Shown: piece by piece, positions 3,650-9,488 of the stretch
Position numbering within the stretch: position 1 is the first letter of the stretch
How the letters are laid out: each line of letters begins with the position of its first letter
NCBI GenBank assembly: GCA_021166775.1
Contig: JAJPEQ010000010.1
Span: forward strand, 1 to 64,000
Reading direction: 5' to 3'
From: Comamonas sp.
GTDB lineage: Bacteria; Pseudomonadota; Gammaproteobacteria; Burkholderiales; Burkholderiaceae_C
DNA length: 64,000 nucleotides
Notes under the pieces: generated by a model
Database searches by the model: none
The model's input: only the letters and a program-made list of their open reading frames with translations
What the model was told of the DNA's origin: nothing
Made by a program: the position numbers and the translations under genes

Positions 3650-3760
3650 GGTACTGCCAGTGCTGTCTGGCGAGTGACCTCCAACGGCTTCAAGTCAGGC
3701 CTGCGCGCTTCGGCAGCCAGCCGGCCTCGCACCCGGTGGAACCATGGCATGCATTTGTCA

Positions 3761-3785
3761 TGGTGCCATGGCCGCCATGGCACCA
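3761..3785. promoter_or_regulatory. Perfect inverted repeat TGGTGCCATGG-CCG-CCATGGCACCA upstream of the hao-like operon
   Basis: 11-bp arms, 3-nt spacer, in the araC-haoA intergenic region. Confidence 0.55.
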
Positions 3786-3888
3786 CCGCGCATGCACGCA
3801 ATGGCTCTTGGTGCAAGTCAAGAAGCGCCGATAGTTGTCCCCATCCACACCTCATGGTCACTGGATGTGTTTGGAACGGAGGGGACTA

Positions 3889-5628
3889 ATGCTTTCGCGA
3901 CTGCTCACTTTGGCCGCCCTGGCCCTTGGCTTGCTGGCCACACACCTGCCGGCCAGCGCGGCCATCTGGGACTCGGTCCCCGATGAACAGCTCAAGGCGC
4001 TCGACCTTTCGCGCGATGCATCGCCCAAGGAGCTGTTCGACAGCCTCTCCAAGCGCTACCGCGCCGAATTGACCAAAGGCAAGCTCGCCAGATATTGGGA
4101 GCCGATCCCGATGGACACGTACCTGGCGCCCACGCTGTTCTACAAACCGCCCGCCGAGCCCGCGATCGAGGCCAAGCGCGAGGATTGCGTGGGCTGCCAC
4201 ACCGCCGTCACGCACGGCTGGGTCAAGTCGTGGGAAAAGAGCGTGCACGCCAACCTCGACCAGATCCGCGCCCTGCCCGACAGCGATGCGCGCGCCTACA
4301 AGAAGGGGGTGATCGTCGAGGTCGAGGACAATCTGCGCTCGCAGGGCCTGCTGGCGCAGGGGCAACCGCTCAAGGACGTGCAGTGCACCGACTGCCACAT
4401 GGGCGTCGGCGTGGCGGGCGGCAACCACGCCAAGGACCTGCGCATGCCCGACCGCACGGTGTGCGGCACCTGTCACGTGCGCCAGTTCGCCGAAGCCGAG
4501 TCCGAGCGCGACACGCTGGTCTGGCCGCAGAAGCAGTGGGCGCAGGGCCACCCTTCGCACACCGTGGACTACATCGCCAACGTCGAGACCGCGACCTGGG
4601 CGGCGCTGCAGCAGCGCGAAGTGGCCGCCAGCTGCACCATGTGCCACACCAACCAGACCAAGTGCGACAACTGCCACACGCGCCACGAGTTCTCCACCGT
4701 CGAGGCGCGCAAGCCCGAGGCCTGCGCCACCTGCCACAACGGCGTCGATCACAACGAGTTCGAGCAGTTCATGTATTCCAAGCACGGCACCGTGTACCAA
4801 ACGCTGGGCGCGAGCTGGGACTGGAACATCCGGCTGGCCGACCAGTTCGCCAGCAAGAACGGCCAGACCGCGCCCACCTGCCAGACCTGCCACTTCGAGT
4901 TCAAGGGGCAGTACACCCACAACGTGGTGCGCAAGGTGCGCTGGGGCTTCCTGCCGTTCAAGAACATCGCCGACAACCTGGACGATCCGTGGTTCAAGGA
5001 CCGCAAGGAGGCCTGGGTCGGCACCTGCTCGCAATGCCACTCGCCGCGCTTTGCCACCAACTACCTCACCATGATGGATGACGGCATCAAGGCCGGCACC
5101 AACCTGGTCGAGGACACCCGCAAGGTGGTGCAAAAGCTCTATGACGACCAGCTGCTGGTCGGGCAGAAAACCAATCGGCCCCCGCTGCGCGAACCCGAGA
5201 AGGACGAGCCGGGCGGCTTCTCCTCGCTGTTCTTCGCCGACAAGAACCAGACCACCATGGTGGATCGCACCTTCGCCGAGATGTGGGAGCAGCACGTCGC
5301 GCGCTACATGAAGGGCTTGCAACACGTCAATCCCGGCGGCTGGACCTATTCGCACGGCTGGAGCGACCTGATCAAGGACCAGGCCATCATCAACGAGCAG
5401 GACACGGTGCTGCGCGAGAAGGCCGCGCTGGAGCAGCGTGTGAACAAGCTCGAGGGGGCCAAGGGGGGCACGAAGACCTCGTCGTTCAACAACGCTGCGG
5501 GCGGCCCGCTAGCGGGTATGGGCATCGACCCGTTGCTTGCTGGCGGCACGCTCGCCATGCTGGGAGGGGGGCTGCTGGTCGGCGGATGGGTAGGGCGGCG
5601 TCGGCGACCCGGCGGCGACGAGCACTGA
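3889..5628 (+). CDS. haoA: Octaheme cytochrome c, hydroxylamine oxidoreductase (HAO) family, with C-terminal membrane anchor
   Basis: Signal peptide; eight CxxCH motifs (CVGCH, CTDCH, CGTCH, CTMCH, CDNCH, CATCH, CQTCH, CSQCH); C-terminal GGTLAMLGGGLLVGGWVGRRRR. Start chosen at MLSRLL, preceded by GGAGGGG; the ORF-track start at 3835 lacks this. Confidence 0.88.
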   Translation: MLSRLLTLAALALGLLATHLPASAAIWDSVPDEQLKALDLSRDASPKELFDSLSKRYRAELTKGKLARYWEPIPMDTYLAPTLFYKPPAEPAIEAKREDCVGCHTAVTHGWVKSWEKSVHANLDQIRALPDSDARAYKKGVIVEVEDNLRSQGLLAQGQPLKDVQCTDCHMGVGVAGGNHAKDLRMPDRTVCGTCHVRQFAEAESERDTLVWPQKQWAQGHPSHTVDYIANVETATWAALQQREVAASCTMCHTNQTKCDNCHTRHEFSTVEARKPEACATCHNGVDHNEFEQFMYSKHGTVYQTLGASWDWNIRLADQFASKNGQTAPTCQTCHFEFKGQYTHNVVRKVRWGFLPFKNIADNLDDPWFKDRKEAWVGTCSQCHSPRFATNYLTMMDDGIKAGTNLVEDTRKVVQKLYDDQLLVGQKTNRPPLREPEKDEPGGFSSLFFADKNQTTMVDRTFAEMWEQHVARYMKGLQHVNPGGWTYSHGWSDLIKDQAIINEQDTVLREKAALEQRVNKLEGAKGGTKTSSFNNAAGGPLAGMGIDPLLAGGTLAMLGGGLLVGGWVGRRRRPGGDEH

Positions 5629-5641
5629 CCGTTGATACGTC

Positions 5642-6739
5642 ATGGTCAACCACGGTGATCCCCTGCAGATGATCGAGCGCCAACGACGATGGCTGAGCCG
5701 CGCCGCCGTGGCCACGGGGCTGGCGCTGCTGGTTGCGGGGTCGGTCGTGCTGTGGCGGCACCTGTCGGCGCCGCCGCCGTACGGCTACACATTGGGCGAC
5801 GCCATCGCATCGGCCGAGCTGGGAGGGTGGGCGGATCTGGGTGAGCAGCAGGTCACGGTCCGGCGCGCCAGCGTCCGTTCGAGCGAATCGAACACGCTAC
5901 TGGCCGACCTCGAAGTCGCCGAGACGGCTGCCGGGCCCGTGCTGCTGCAGTGGAAGTCGCGCGTCGACGATCCGTTCCTGGCCCTCACCATCGCGCCCGA
6001 CGACGTGGTGGCACTCGCTTCGGTGCTCAAGCGCCATGTGCCGTCCGACGCCTCCGTGCTGGCCTGGTGGGACAGCTCGCGGCAGTTCAAGCTGTTGAGC
6101 GCAGTGGACGTGGCGTTCGACCAGCACCTGGGCATGCCCTTGTTCGTGCCCGCGCGCTGGAATGCCAGTCGCGGCGGCATCGAGACCGTCGAGCGCGCCT
6201 TCTGGCTCGGTGCCGACCACGCCGACCCAGCGCCGCAGCAGGAGCGCTTTCGGCGCTTTGCCGACGCGCTGCTGGCGCCCGAAGAAGAAGGCATCGCCGC
6301 GCTGCAGGCCTTGGCTGGTGGCAAGACCACGGTGCTGATCCTGCATCTGCGCGACCTGATCCTGCTCGGCCAGCTCGCACCCAGGAAGATGGGGGTGGCG
6401 TTCCAGGACTTCGGCGCCATGGGCGACGTGCATGGCTCAGTGCGCCGGGTGCACGCCTGGCTCGACCAGCACCAGTACCCCACCTACGGCGTGTGGCAGG
6501 GCAAGGATCAGCCGCTGCGCGCCATCGCCCTGACCGATGCCCCTTCCGGCAAGACCCTGGCGGCACGGCTGCTGCCGCTGATGGGCAACGACCAGCATGA
6601 CGTCGCCGGGGCCACGCTGGTCTATCGCGTGGGCGGCTTTTCGGTGTTCGAGATCGCGCCGGCCCGGGCCACGGCCGCGCCTTCGGCCGATGCGCTCAAG
6701 AGCGCCGCCGCCCCGTTGCCCGAGGAGCCGCGCCCATGA
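5642..6739 (+). CDS. haoB: HaoB-like membrane-anchored protein
   Basis: About 365 aa, single N-terminal TM (AAVATGLALLVAGSVVLWRHL), directly downstream of haoA-like gene and overlapping the next gene by ATGA. Family call rests on size, topology and synteny. Confidence 0.6.
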   Translation: MVNHGDPLQMIERQRRWLSRAAVATGLALLVAGSVVLWRHLSAPPPYGYTLGDAIASAELGGWADLGEQQVTVRRASVRSSESNTLLADLEVAETAAGPVLLQWKSRVDDPFLALTIAPDDVVALASVLKRHVPSDASVLAWWDSSRQFKLLSAVDVAFDQHLGMPLFVPARWNASRGGIETVERAFWLGADHADPAPQQERFRRFADALLAPEEEGIAALQALAGGKTTVLILHLRDLILLGQLAPRKMGVAFQDFGAMGDVHGSVRRVHAWLDQHQYPTYGVWQGKDQPLRAIALTDAPSGKTLAARLLPLMGNDQHDVAGATLVYRVGGFSVFEIAPARATAAPSADALKSAAAPLPEEPRP

Positions 6740-7974
6740 CCCTGTTCGTCGTGCTGGCCGCAGCCATGGTGCTGCTGGCTCTTGCGGTGGTGGTGGTGCC
6801 GCTGCTTCGCCACGTGCCCGCACGCGGCGCGAACGGCGATCCGGCCCTCGTCGTGCTGGCCGATGCGGCGGATGAACTGCAAGCCCAGCGAGTGTCCGGC
6901 GCCTTGAGCGATGCCGAATACACCCGCGCGCTGCGGGAGCTGCAGCAACAGGCGCTGCAGTCGCACGCGGCGTTGTCGCGATCGGGTGGCGTCGGCTCCA
7001 GCCCGCGGGCCAACTGGGGCGCGGCCCTCGCCACGGCGGTGGCCCTGCCCTTGGTTGCCGTGGCGCTCTACCTCTCGGTGGGCCAGCCCAGCGTCATCAA
7101 CGGCAACCGTCCGCTGGCGGGCAGCCCGCATCTCCCGGGCGACGACGCCATCACCGCGCTGTCGCAACGGCTGGCACGGGACGGCAACGACGCCGAGGGC
7201 TGGGTGCTGCTGGCGCGCTCGTCGTTCCAGGCGCGGCGCATCGATGAGGCCCTGAATGCCTACCGCAAGGCCACCGCTCTGCAAAGGAACAACGCCGACC
7301 TGTGGGTCGAATACGCCAACACGCTGGCGATCGCCAACGACCGCAAGCTGTCGGGCGAGCCGACGCGACTGGTCGAGCGCGCCCTCGAAATCGACCCCGA
7401 CAACCTCAATGCCCTGGCCTTTGCCGGCCTCGCGGCGTTGCAGGGCGGCAACCGTGGGCTGGCACTGCGGCACTGGCAACGGCTCCAATCGCTGGTGCCG
7501 GACGGCTCCGAGGACCGCGAGCGGATTGCGGCGCTGATCGCGCGCGCCCAGGGCGAGCCCCGGCCAGCCAGTGCAACCGTCCCTGCACAGGCCGCGGAGC
7601 GCCCCGTTGAAACCGGGGCGGCGAGTACGCCGTCGATCCGCGGCACGGTCAGCCTCGACGCTGCGCTGGCCAGCCAAGTGGCTCCTACCGACACCCTGTT
7701 CGTGTTCGCCCGGGCGACCGACGGCCCGCCCATGCCTCTGGCCGCGATGCGCACACGCACGGCCGGCTGGCCGGTGGCCTTCACGCTCGACGACAGCAGC
7801 GCCATGGGACAGGGCCGGGCGCTGTCGCAATCGGGGCGCGTGCAGATCGTCGCGCGCATCTCGCGCCTGGGCAGTCCCGGTGCCCAACCCGGCGACATCG
7901 AAGGCACGATGGAAGGCGTCGCGGTCGGCGCCAGCGACGTACGGGTGGTACTCAACCGCGTGGTCGGGCGCTGA
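6736..7974 (+). CDS. CcmI-like c-type cytochrome biogenesis TPR protein
   Basis: Two N-terminal TM segments, CcmI-like DELQAQRVSGALSDAEYTRALRELQQQ, TPR region NAEGWVLLARSSFQARRIDEALNAYRKA, C-terminal domain VSLDAALASQVAPTDTLFVFARATDGPPMPLAAMR. Confidence 0.85.
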   Translation: MTLFVVLAAAMVLLALAVVVVPLLRHVPARGANGDPALVVLADAADELQAQRVSGALSDAEYTRALRELQQQALQSHAALSRSGGVGSSPRANWGAALATAVALPLVAVALYLSVGQPSVINGNRPLAGSPHLPGDDAITALSQRLARDGNDAEGWVLLARSSFQARRIDEALNAYRKATALQRNNADLWVEYANTLAIANDRKLSGEPTRLVERALEIDPDNLNALAFAGLAALQGGNRGLALRHWQRLQSLVPDGSEDRERIAALIARAQGEPRPASATVPAQAAERPVETGAASTPSIRGTVSLDAALASQVAPTDTLFVFARATDGPPMPLAAMRTRTAGWPVAFTLDDSSAMGQGRALSQSGRVQIVARISRLGSPGAQPGDIEGTMEGVAVGASDVRVVLNRVVGR

Positions 7975-8009: not shown

Positions 8010-9488
8010 TCAGTGCGCCCCGATCGCCTGGCGCAAACGCAGCAGGGCCTCGCTGATCTCGGTCTGTGACAGCGCCGCGTAGCCCAGCAGCAGCACGCGC
8101 CGCAGCGGGTGATCCGGCCCCGCATTCCACAACAGCGCGTTGCCCCGGGCAATGCTGTAGACGCCCACCCCCTGGGTACGTGCCAGCTTTTCCACCGCCT
8201 CGGCATCGGGCCCCTGCGGCGGCAGATGCGCCACCAGGTGCATGCCGCTGCCGCCGCCGCCGCAGTGCCAGCCTGGCAAGCCGTGGGAGATGCCCGCGCA
8301 CAGATGGTCGCGCCGCGCGGCGTAGGACTGGCGCAGGCGCCGCAGGTGCTCGGCGTAGCCGCCTTCGGTGATGAAGGCGGCCAGTGCCGCCTGTTCCAGC
8401 CAGGGCTGGCAGTTGTTGAGCAAGGCCTTGGCGCGTCGCGCCGGCTCGCGCAGTTCCGTCGGCAGCACCATGTAACCGATGCGCAGGCCCGCACCCAGGC
8501 TCTTGGAAAACGTGCCCAGGTAGATCACATGGCCATGGCGGTCCAGGCTCTTGAGCGCGGGCAGCGGCGTGCCGTCGTAAAAGAAATCGCAGTCGTAGTC
8601 GTCCTCCACGACGTAGGCGCCCGCCTGCGCCGCCCAGCCCAGCAGCGCCTGGCGCCGCTCGATCGACAAGGTGGCGCCCAGCGGGTACTGGTGCGAGGGC
8701 GTCACGTAGGCCAGGGCGGCGGACGTCGGCAAGGCCGCGCAGTCAAGACCGTCGTGATCGACCGCCACCGGCCGCAGGCGCGCCCCATGACCACGGAAAA
8801 CCTGGGCGGCGCCGCGGTAGCAGGGGTTTTCGACCACCACCTCGATTCCGGGCGCGATCAGCAGCCAGGCCAGCAGATTGAGCCCCTCCTGGATGCCGTT
8901 GGTGACCAGGATGTTCTGCGCAGCGGCCGCGATGCCGCGCGTGGCACCCACATGAGCGGCAATGGCCTGGCGCAGCGCCAGTTCGCCCTGGGGGTCGCCG
9001 TAGTCGCACAGGTGCCGCGCGCCACCACGCAGCTTGCGCATCAGCAGCGCCTGCCAATGCCGCATCGGGAACAGCCGGGCATCGGGCCGGCCGATCCAGA
9101 AATCGAAGGGCAGCGCGGGCCCGTGCGGGGCCACCACCTGATGGCCCTCGACACGCAGCTTGAGCCGGCGCCGGCGCCGGCGCTCGGCGGCAACGCTGGT
9201 CGTGGCCTCGGGCAGCGGCAGCAGGGCCGGTCCCTCGGCCACGATGCGCCCGGCGACAAACGTGCCGGTGGGCTCGCGTGCCTCGATCAGACCCTCGGCG
9301 GCCAGCCGCTCGAAAGCCCCCATGACGGTGTTGCGCGAGACACCAAGATCCAGCGCCAGTTGGCGGGTCGCCGGCATGCGCGCGCCCGGGGTCAGGCGGC
9401 CGTCCAGGATCAGCTGGCGAATCTGGTCGGTGACCTGCGCCTGCAGGCCCATGCCGGCGGCTGGATCGATGCGCAGAGGCAGCTGCAT
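8010..9488 (-). CDS. MocR/PdxR-family regulator (GntR wHTH fused to class I aminotransferase-like domain)
   Basis: GntR motif PATRQLALDLGVSRNTVMGAFERLAAEGLIEAREPTGTFV and PLP domain VVEDDYDCDFFYDG...YLGTFSKSLGAGLRIGYMV. Start chosen at MQLPLRIDP. Confidence 0.93.
   Translation of the reverse strand: MQLPLRIDPAAGMGLQAQVTDQIRQLILDGRLTPGARMPATRQLALDLGVSRNTVMGAFERLAAEGLIEAREPTGTFVAGRIVAEGPALLPLPEATTSVAAERRRRRRLKLRVEGHQVVAPHGPALPFDFWIGRPDARLFPMRHWQALLMRKLRGGARHLCDYGDPQGELALRQAIAAHVGATRGIAAAAQNILVTNGIQEGLNLLAWLLIAPGIEVVVENPCYRGAAQVFRGHGARLRPVAVDHDGLDCAALPTSAALAYVTPSHQYPLGATLSIERRQALLGWAAQAGAYVVEDDYDCDFFYDGTPLPALKSLDRHGHVIYLGTFSKSLGAGLRIGYMVLPTELREPARRAKALLNNCQPWLEQAALAAFITEGGYAEHLRRLRQSYAARRDHLCAGISHGLPGWHCGGGGSGMHLVAHLPPQGPDAEAVEKLARTQGVGVYSIARGNALLWNAGPDHPLRRVLLLGYAALSQTEISEALLRLRQAIGAH

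Follow-up and report, generated by a model that had tools for sequence, protein, structure and literature searches.

Ammonia-oxidizing bacteria (AOB) carry the genes for hydroxylamine oxidoreductase (HAO) and its partners in the order haoA-haoB-cycA-cycB, and the AOB-type hydroxylamine:ubiquinone redox module combines these four genes with an ammonia monooxygenase (AMO) in the same genome. haoAB has already been documented outside AOB, i.e., in methanotrophs, in the annotation of Ruegeria pomeroyi, and in Ca. Desulfobacillus (PMC8402940). The HAO of methanotrophs is regarded as serving hydroxylamine detoxification (PMC3794950), and in proteomics of Methylocystis SC2, HaoA and HaoB rise with ammonium load (PMC9600857). 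In Alcaligenes, the hydroxylamine-forming dnf cluster is controlled by DnfR, a regulator of the MocR family (PMC12575085), whose ligand is described as yet to be identified (PMC11440038). Here, we analyzed a 64,000-nucleotide stretch of DNA from Comamonas sp. (assembly GCA_021166775.1, contig JAJPEQ010000010.1, positions 1 to 64,000 of the forward strand; from here on, the window), in which haoA, haoB, and ccmI are followed by a convergent mocR gene. Our analyses support, with moderate confidence, that this locus is an inducible hydroxylamine-oxidation/detoxification module of a heterotroph that is switched by MocR, with hydroxylamine as the probable signal.

The locus has the following genes and coding features (genomes and loci are referred to by G and L numbers below):
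3889 to 5628, + strand: haoA, octaheme HAO of 579 aa, with eight CxxCH motifs and a full-length alignment to the HAO of Nitrosomonas europaea (Ne-HAO)
about 3889 to 3963, + strand: Sec-type signal peptide of HaoA
4633 to 4647, + strand: CTMCH, residues 249-253, aligning with the fourth (P460) heme motif of Ne-HAO (mature residues 229-233)
4747 to 4752, + strand: Asp287-His288, by alignment the equivalents of the catalytic-pocket residues Asp267-His268
5347 to 5349, + strand: Tyr487, by alignment the equivalent of the heme-P460 cross-linking Tyr467
about 5524 to 5590, + strand: C-terminal membrane segment of HaoA
5642 to 6739, + strand: haoB, 365 aa, with one N-terminal transmembrane (TM) helix (TIGR04392)
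6736 to 7974, + strand: ccmI paralogue of the CcmI/CycH type, 412 aa, with TM, TPR, and Ig-like domains, above the TIGR03142 cutoff
8010 to 9488, - strand: mocR, 492-aa regulator with a GntR winged helix-turn-helix (wHTH) domain and an aminotransferase-fold domain that binds pyridoxal phosphate (PLP), convergent with ccmI

The enzyme adds a member to a known family. Window HaoA matched Ne-HAO (PDB 4fas/6m0p) with an E value of 1.6e-178 to 4fas over ~530 residues (29-559), while anammox HAO-like proteins and hydrazine dehydrogenase (HDH) scored far lower. Because the scores of OTR, octaheme nitrite reductase (ONR), and HDH were far below that of Ne-HAO, we ruled out that HaoA is one of these unrelated octaheme proteins; an iron-reduction cytochrome was ruled out as well, and HaoA is a true HAO. 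The closest named relative is the metagenome-assembled genome (MAG) Comamonas sp. SCN 67-35 (97% HaoA identity). HaoB scored 229.6 bits against TIGR04392 (curated cutoff, 200; E value, 7e-68). The AlphaFold model of HaoB (pLDDT of 89) had partial fold matches in the PDB, to the C-terminal domains of PglB/STT3, and since these were weak (TMq of about 0.3), we assign no function to HaoB from its fold. An earlier reading of this DNA from its letters and open reading frames (the sequence-only reading) had proposed an operon of these first three genes, encoding an octaheme protein with a signal peptide and a C-terminal membrane segment, a single-TM HaoB-like protein of 365 aa, and a CcmI-like protein whose start overlaps the haoB end by ATGA; all these assignments, and the coordinates and frames of the three genes, were borne out, with agreement well outside what chance would give. 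That reading had set its proposal against a case in which the closest homologs were OTR, ONR, or iron-reduction cytochromes and the second gene had no similarity to HaoB; we found Ne-HAO as the best match and HaoB above its family cutoff. It had also described the module as membrane tethered. The membrane segment is indeed there, but it is present in all HaoA proteins examined, including those of AOB, and we therefore ruled it out as a special trait of window HaoA.

The equivalents of Tyr467, Asp267, and His268 are kept in every collected HaoA that covers these sites. The P460-cross-linking tyrosine is not known to occur in reductive HAO or ONR. Based on alignment and residues, window HaoA is almost certainly a genuine oxidative P460-type HAO by identity. 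The conserved tyrosine, together with our failure to find a NapC/NirT-type quinol donor in the window genome, argues against an enzyme that works mainly in reverse, forming hydroxylamine or ammonium from NO or nitrite; such a direction has been proposed for the HAO of epsilonproteobacteria and of Ca. Desulfobacillus. In favor of that direction are the isolate names of many hao-positive MAGs, which suggest nitritation or anammox reactors, and the reduction of NO by Ne-HAO in vitro (cited in PMC8402940). We consider a mainly reductive role improbable.

Searches of the window genome (G000; 2.9 Mb, 95% complete) with PF02461 (AmoA/PmoA), PF13435 (c554), and PF03264 (cM552/NapC) gave no match, whereas the same searches were positive in AMO-positive Nitrosomonadaceae used as AOB controls. 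No cycA or cycB follows haoAB in the window. The picture of an ordinary heterotroph without cycAB behind haoAB, drawn in the sequence-only reading from the locus and its neighborhood, held at the genome level, where AMO gave no hit either. Of nine related genomes from the same family in which HaoB was found, none had AMO, eight were free of c554 (G488 had one weak C554-family hit), and eight were free of cM552 (G615 had one NapC-family hit). The trait is patchy in this family, since HaoB was found in 11 of 401 sampled genomes, in 9 of them above the cutoff. Like the AOB module, the window locus has an eight-heme HaoA with the P460 tyrosine and the catalytic Asp-His pair, HaoB, and the same order of the first two genes; unlike it, the locus comes without AMO, c554, and cM552, has a MocR and an operator, is linked to a ccm gene, and encodes a HaoA of a separate clade. 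haoAB without cycAB is also found in methanotrophs, e.g., Methylocystis SC2, but these bacteria make hydroxylamine themselves with particulate methane monooxygenase (pMMO).

The conserved unit is wider than the three genes at 3889-7974 to which the sequence-only reading had confined it, extending to 9488 downstream, with mocR, and to about 3737 upstream, with the operator described below. MocR was placed in the MocR/GabR subfamily based on matches to PF00392 and PF00155 and to GabR (4n0b; 4e-62). Clustering of neighboring proteins identified the MocR family in 26 of 30 hao loci, and in every locus of the heterotroph set with enough flank, mocR lies directly beside the hao(-ccm) block. With the loci fetched later included, it does so in four arrangements. 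In the Comamonas group, mocR is downstream and convergent, and in alphaproteobacteria, it is downstream and codirectional inside the operon; the other two arrangements are upstream codirectional and divergent. This variation around a constant partnership supports a functional linkage rather than passive synteny. Of the HaoB-positive genomes that were searched for both, 24 of 28 without and 1 of 10 with an AMO/pMMO hit had a MocR next to hao (Fisher P = 4e-5, ignoring phylogeny and near-duplicates). The four MocR-less genomes without an AMO hit are G1378, G214, G274, and G244; G214 and G274 are drafts of an AOB genus, from whose assemblies amo may be missing, and G244 is a small Nitrosomonadaceae genome with a partial HaoB hit. 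In the MocR tree, the hao-linked proteins form one clade (support, 100/99) that leaves out 14 of 16 unlinked homologs from the same genomes. The two unlinked proteins inside the clade are near-identical to each other (G1241 and G1369). MocR homologs on two further plasmids (Jannaschia and Serratia) lie in unrelated neighborhoods. The open literature searched, which leaves out most subscription journals, yielded no paper that connects MocR with HAO; in it, the conserved pairing with MocR, the operator, and the anticorrelation of both with AMO appear undescribed.

Upstream of haoA, we identified the following candidate regulatory elements:
3778 to 3810, + strand: predicted MocR operator, with direct half-sites TGGCACCAC (3778-3786) and TGGCTCTTG (3802-3810), 24 bp apart
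3737 to 3769, + strand: second, upstream operator-like pair, TGGAACCAT (3737-3745) and TGGTGCCAT (3761-3769), also 24 bp apart and kept in L001, the nearest relative
3808 to 3835, + strand: putative sigma-70-like promoter, with -35 TTGGTG (3808-3813), a 16-bp spacer, and -10 GATAGT (3830-3835)

The operator consensus is the direct repeat YGGNNCCA-N16-YGGNNCTW, with half-sites 24 bp apart, and the second half-site in the window overlaps the -35-like TTGGTG. Among the first 31 regions, a TGGNNC direct repeat at exactly this offset occurred in 20, compared with a maximum of 3 at any offset in dinucleotide shuffles. About half of the nonredundant MocR-linked loci fetched later (L171, L173, L175, L178) have the strict TGG form; the relaxed YGG form at offset 24 was present in 8/8 later-fetched regions (500 randomized sets: mean of 0.5, maximum of 4). 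Using the regular expression YGGNNCCR-N15/16-YGGNNCYW, we found the site upstream of 38 of 40 MocR-linked haoA genes and also in L023, where the upstream stretch is short. Positions 8 (A) and 31 (T), which this expression leaves partly free, were invariant in 39 sites. The two exceptions are R. pomeroyi, with a variant that keeps the 24-bp spacing, and L026, with a degenerate site. Three contigs that end before mocR also have the site (L003, L004, L022), in contrast to 0 of 13 upstream regions of MocR-less haoA genes. The background of the consensus is ~0.01 per 400 bp on both strands; in the 64-kb window, it matched once (3778-3809), with 0.05 matches expected by chance. In some genomes (L167, L168, L172, L175), sites also precede mocR and cycA, which fits a small regulon with autoregulation. 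The overlap of operator and promoter resembles that described for EnuR, where the promoter core overlaps two predicted operators. Based on these patterns, MocR very likely controls haoA through the predicted site.

What MocR responds to is suggested by its pocket and by chemistry. GabR and EnuR, like window MocR, combine a wHTH domain with an aminotransferase-fold domain that has the PLP lysine and its pocket. The equivalents of GabR Lys312, Asp279, Tyr205, Tyr281, and Arg319 are kept in the hao-linked MocRs, with the PLP lysine in a TFSK motif. GabR proper binds the GABA carboxylate with Arg207 and Arg430, and this pair is not found in the hao-linked MocRs: the Arg207 equivalent is Gly in 40/40 linked proteins, and Arg430 is kept in 6/40, that of the window included. 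Besides these mostly absent arginines, the half-site YGGNNCYW and the target operon set the hao-linked MocRs apart from GabR. In GabR and EnuR, binding of the amine displaces the internal aldimine between Lys and PLP and alters DNA binding (PMC6917764, PMC8739950), and stable oximes arise when O-substituted hydroxylamines react with the PLP of enzymes (PMC11557217). Since hydroxylamine has no carboxylate and PLP forms such oximes, a PLP regulator is chemically suited to sense it. Because the PLP aldehyde forms an oxime with hydroxylamine, MocR would probably sense this compound, and from this chemistry we give hydroxylamine, acting through a PLP-oxime, an even chance of being the ligand.

MocR regulators are known to respond to amines and amino acids (GABA, ADABA) or to PLP itself (PMC8739950). 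MocR could control the module but respond to a signal other than hydroxylamine (an amine or amino acid, the PLP status, or an oxime); HAO would then follow the general status of nitrogen or vitamin B6. The Arg430 equivalent of window MocR and the related MocR that adjoins torAC and not hao are in line with this idea. However, the linkage of MocR tracks hao over distant lineages, the operator stays at haoA whatever the position of mocR, and both carboxylate-binding arginines are missing in most linked MocRs. Moreover, the MocR of Alcaligenes likewise controls a hydroxylamine cluster (PMC12575085). That Dirammox dnf cluster resembles the hao locus in having a MocR regulator over hydroxylamine-pathway genes in a heterotroph, but dnfABC makes and oxidizes hydroxylamine with unrelated enzymes. 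On balance, we regard a ligand of this other kind as somewhat unlikely.

Several points weigh against a MocR-switched hydroxylamine module. Binding, expression, and activity of the system are predicted here from sequence. The regular expression for the site was refined on the same sequences in which sites were counted, and its relaxation to Y was made after the later regions had been seen. In one MocR of G356, encoded in two of the fetched loci, the PLP lysine is replaced by Arg. Many unlinked MocRs have also lost the carboxylate-binding arginines, and window MocR keeps Arg at 430; because the loss is not clade specific and the window protein retains this residue, the loss is suggestive only. 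The alphaproteobacterial, pMMO-positive genome G973, presumably of a methanotroph, also has a linked MocR. Finally, a second MocR of the clade in G1241 (L174:3701-9092), of which that of G1369 is a related copy, lies beside genes for a TorA-family S/N-oxide reductase and a TorC-like cytochrome, and the clade is therefore not restricted to hao. This second location hints at a wider regulon for N-O compounds.

With hydroxylamine as the signal, the system could work as follows. HaoA would oxidize periplasmic hydroxylamine, most likely to NO, with HaoB as its accessory membrane protein, and the electrons would probably leave via ordinary c-type cytochromes rather than c554/cM552. The convergent MocR would bind the direct repeat upstream of haoA and switch the operon when hydroxylamine displaces the Lys-PLP aldimine and a PLP-oxime results, just as an external aldimine arises from amines in GabR and EnuR. 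Hydroxylamine would be supplied from outside, e.g., by nearby ammonia oxidizers, or by side reactions. As no AMO was found, heterotrophic nitrification, one of the roles considered in the sequence-only reading, is not supported if taken to mean ammonia oxidation; without AMO, hydroxylamine is expected to be external or a side product, and detoxification would be the first job of the module. This was the other role considered there, and we regard it as the likely main one.

Alternatively, the module might mainly conserve energy by passing electrons from external hydroxylamine into the respiratory chain, with detoxification as a secondary effect. Its neighbors in R. pomeroyi, annotated as a cbb3 oxidase, would suit such a role, as would the AMO-less genomes G039, G356, G1169, and G1502, which retain cycAB beside haoAB. 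The window genome and nearly all its close relatives lack c554 and cM552, and hydroxylamine is scarce in the environment, so that we consider a mainly energy-conserving module unlikely.

In these four genomes (L167, L168, L171, and L172, respectively), haoA-haoB-cycA-cycB lies beside mocR, and no AMO/pMMO hit was obtained; based on gene content, these loci are candidate AMO-independent hydroxylamine-oxidizing modules. G356 has two different hao loci, L168 of the cycAB type and L169 of the Burkholderiales type, each with its own linked MocR.

The hao module of R. pomeroyi DSS-3 resembles that of the window in gene content. On the megaplasmid, haoA-haoB-mocR-ccmFGHI-hemA-ccmE is preceded by the operator variant with the 24-bp offset, and the MocR is annotated as a PLP-dependent aminotransferase family protein. 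Unlike in the window, which has only ccmI and a convergent mocR, mocR of this alphaproteobacterium lies inside the operon, which has its own hemA. The surrounding stretch (NC_006569.1, 196-216 kb; L187/L188) is annotated with the hao block, hemA, ccmE, a truncated hemoglobin, ccoNOQP, and an Rrf2 regulator, and with a short gene pair that carries the annotation cytochrome oxidase subunit I and may be norCB. This stretch is possibly a complete island for handling hydroxylamine to NO.

Genes for c-type cytochrome maturation are recurrent neighbors of hao. A whole ccm operon follows haoAB in close relatives (L005, L007, L009, L010, and Allopusillimonas/Castellaniella L011 and L012), ccmF/H/I follows in L008 and L022, and ccmF-G-H-I, hemA, and ccmE follow in alphaproteobacteria (L023-L025, L029, and R. 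pomeroyi); the window thus has a reduced form of a recurrent linkage. The window genome has a complete ccmC-E-F-G-H-I-A-B set on contig 11 (L034) with its own CcmI, which is 52% identical to the hao-adjacent CcmI and groups among the hao-linked CcmI proteins of relatives in the CcmI tree. Therefore, the ccmI gene beside hao is an extra, diverged copy, and the complete operon and this grouping weaken the idea of a unique HAO-specific helper. Of the heme-ligation helper that the sequence-only reading had assigned to the module, the recurrent neighborhood stands and the exclusivity does not. A dedicated heme lyase of the NrfEFG type would have its own CcmF/CcmH/CcmI set; the window has CcmI alone, and more than CcmI lies beside hao in the relatives L008, L022, and L024 and in R. 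pomeroyi. The ccm machinery is otherwise a housekeeping System I, and the extra CcmI may help it handle the many c-hemes of HaoA. In L177 (G1292, pMMO/AMO-positive), haoA-haoB is followed directly by ccmA-ccmB-ccmC, and this hao-ccm linkage occurs without a linked MocR.

The HaoA tree, which has no outgroup root, has two halves. The half with window HaoA holds heterotrophic Burkholderiales, alphaproteobacteria, and G973; the other holds AOB, gammaproteobacterial pMMO/AMO genomes, and AMO-less genomes with cycAB. MocR-linked members occur in both. On the methanotroph side, G973 has the same MocR and operator as the window, unlike the pMMO/AMO-positive genomes G1292 and G1410, in which the linked MocR and the operator are absent. 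If the operon were a relic, decaying or passive, that came from an AOB neighbor, its patchy distribution in the family (HaoB in 11/401 genomes) would be accounted for. However, window HaoA lies on the opposite side of the tree from AOB with its active-site residues intact, and dozens of loci have kept both regulator and operator, making such a relic very improbable. AOB HaoA is sister to the HaoA of the AMO-less, MocR-linked G039 and G356 (support, 100/97), which suggests, on this unrooted tree, that a hydroxylamine module under regulation was acquired by AOB, which then lost the regulator. More broadly, we tentatively propose, at slightly less than even confidence, that the hao-MocR clade is a dedicated hydroxylamine sensor, working as a PLP oxime trap on the 24-bp repeat, and that the hao-cycAB of AOB derives from an inducible, AMO-independent module whose sensor and operator were lost once AMO made hydroxylamine constant. 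Held just as tentatively, the HAO module under this sensor would be found in heterotrophs, in a pMMO-bearing lineage of alphaproteobacteria, and in relatives of AOB that have no AMO.

Separately, the start of the contig (window 1-1883) is a CRISPR array with at least 25 copies of the 28-bp repeat GTTCACTGCCGCACAGGCAGCTCAGAAA at a 60-bp period, type I-F-like; the long open reading frames listed there are artifacts of the repeat.

Outside ammonia oxidizers, HAO usually receives brief mention and no explanation; with a conserved regulator and an operator that can be predicted, its retention by heterotrophs becomes testable, and a gene-encoded hydroxylamine sensor is suggested. In metagenomes, mocR plus the operator would be a signature that separates inducible detoxifying hao loci from those of AOB. 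The findings also hint at how the hydroxylamine module of AOB may have arisen, and the hosts of such loci may be an unrecognized source of NO/N2O or a sink for hydroxylamine in nitrifying reactors.

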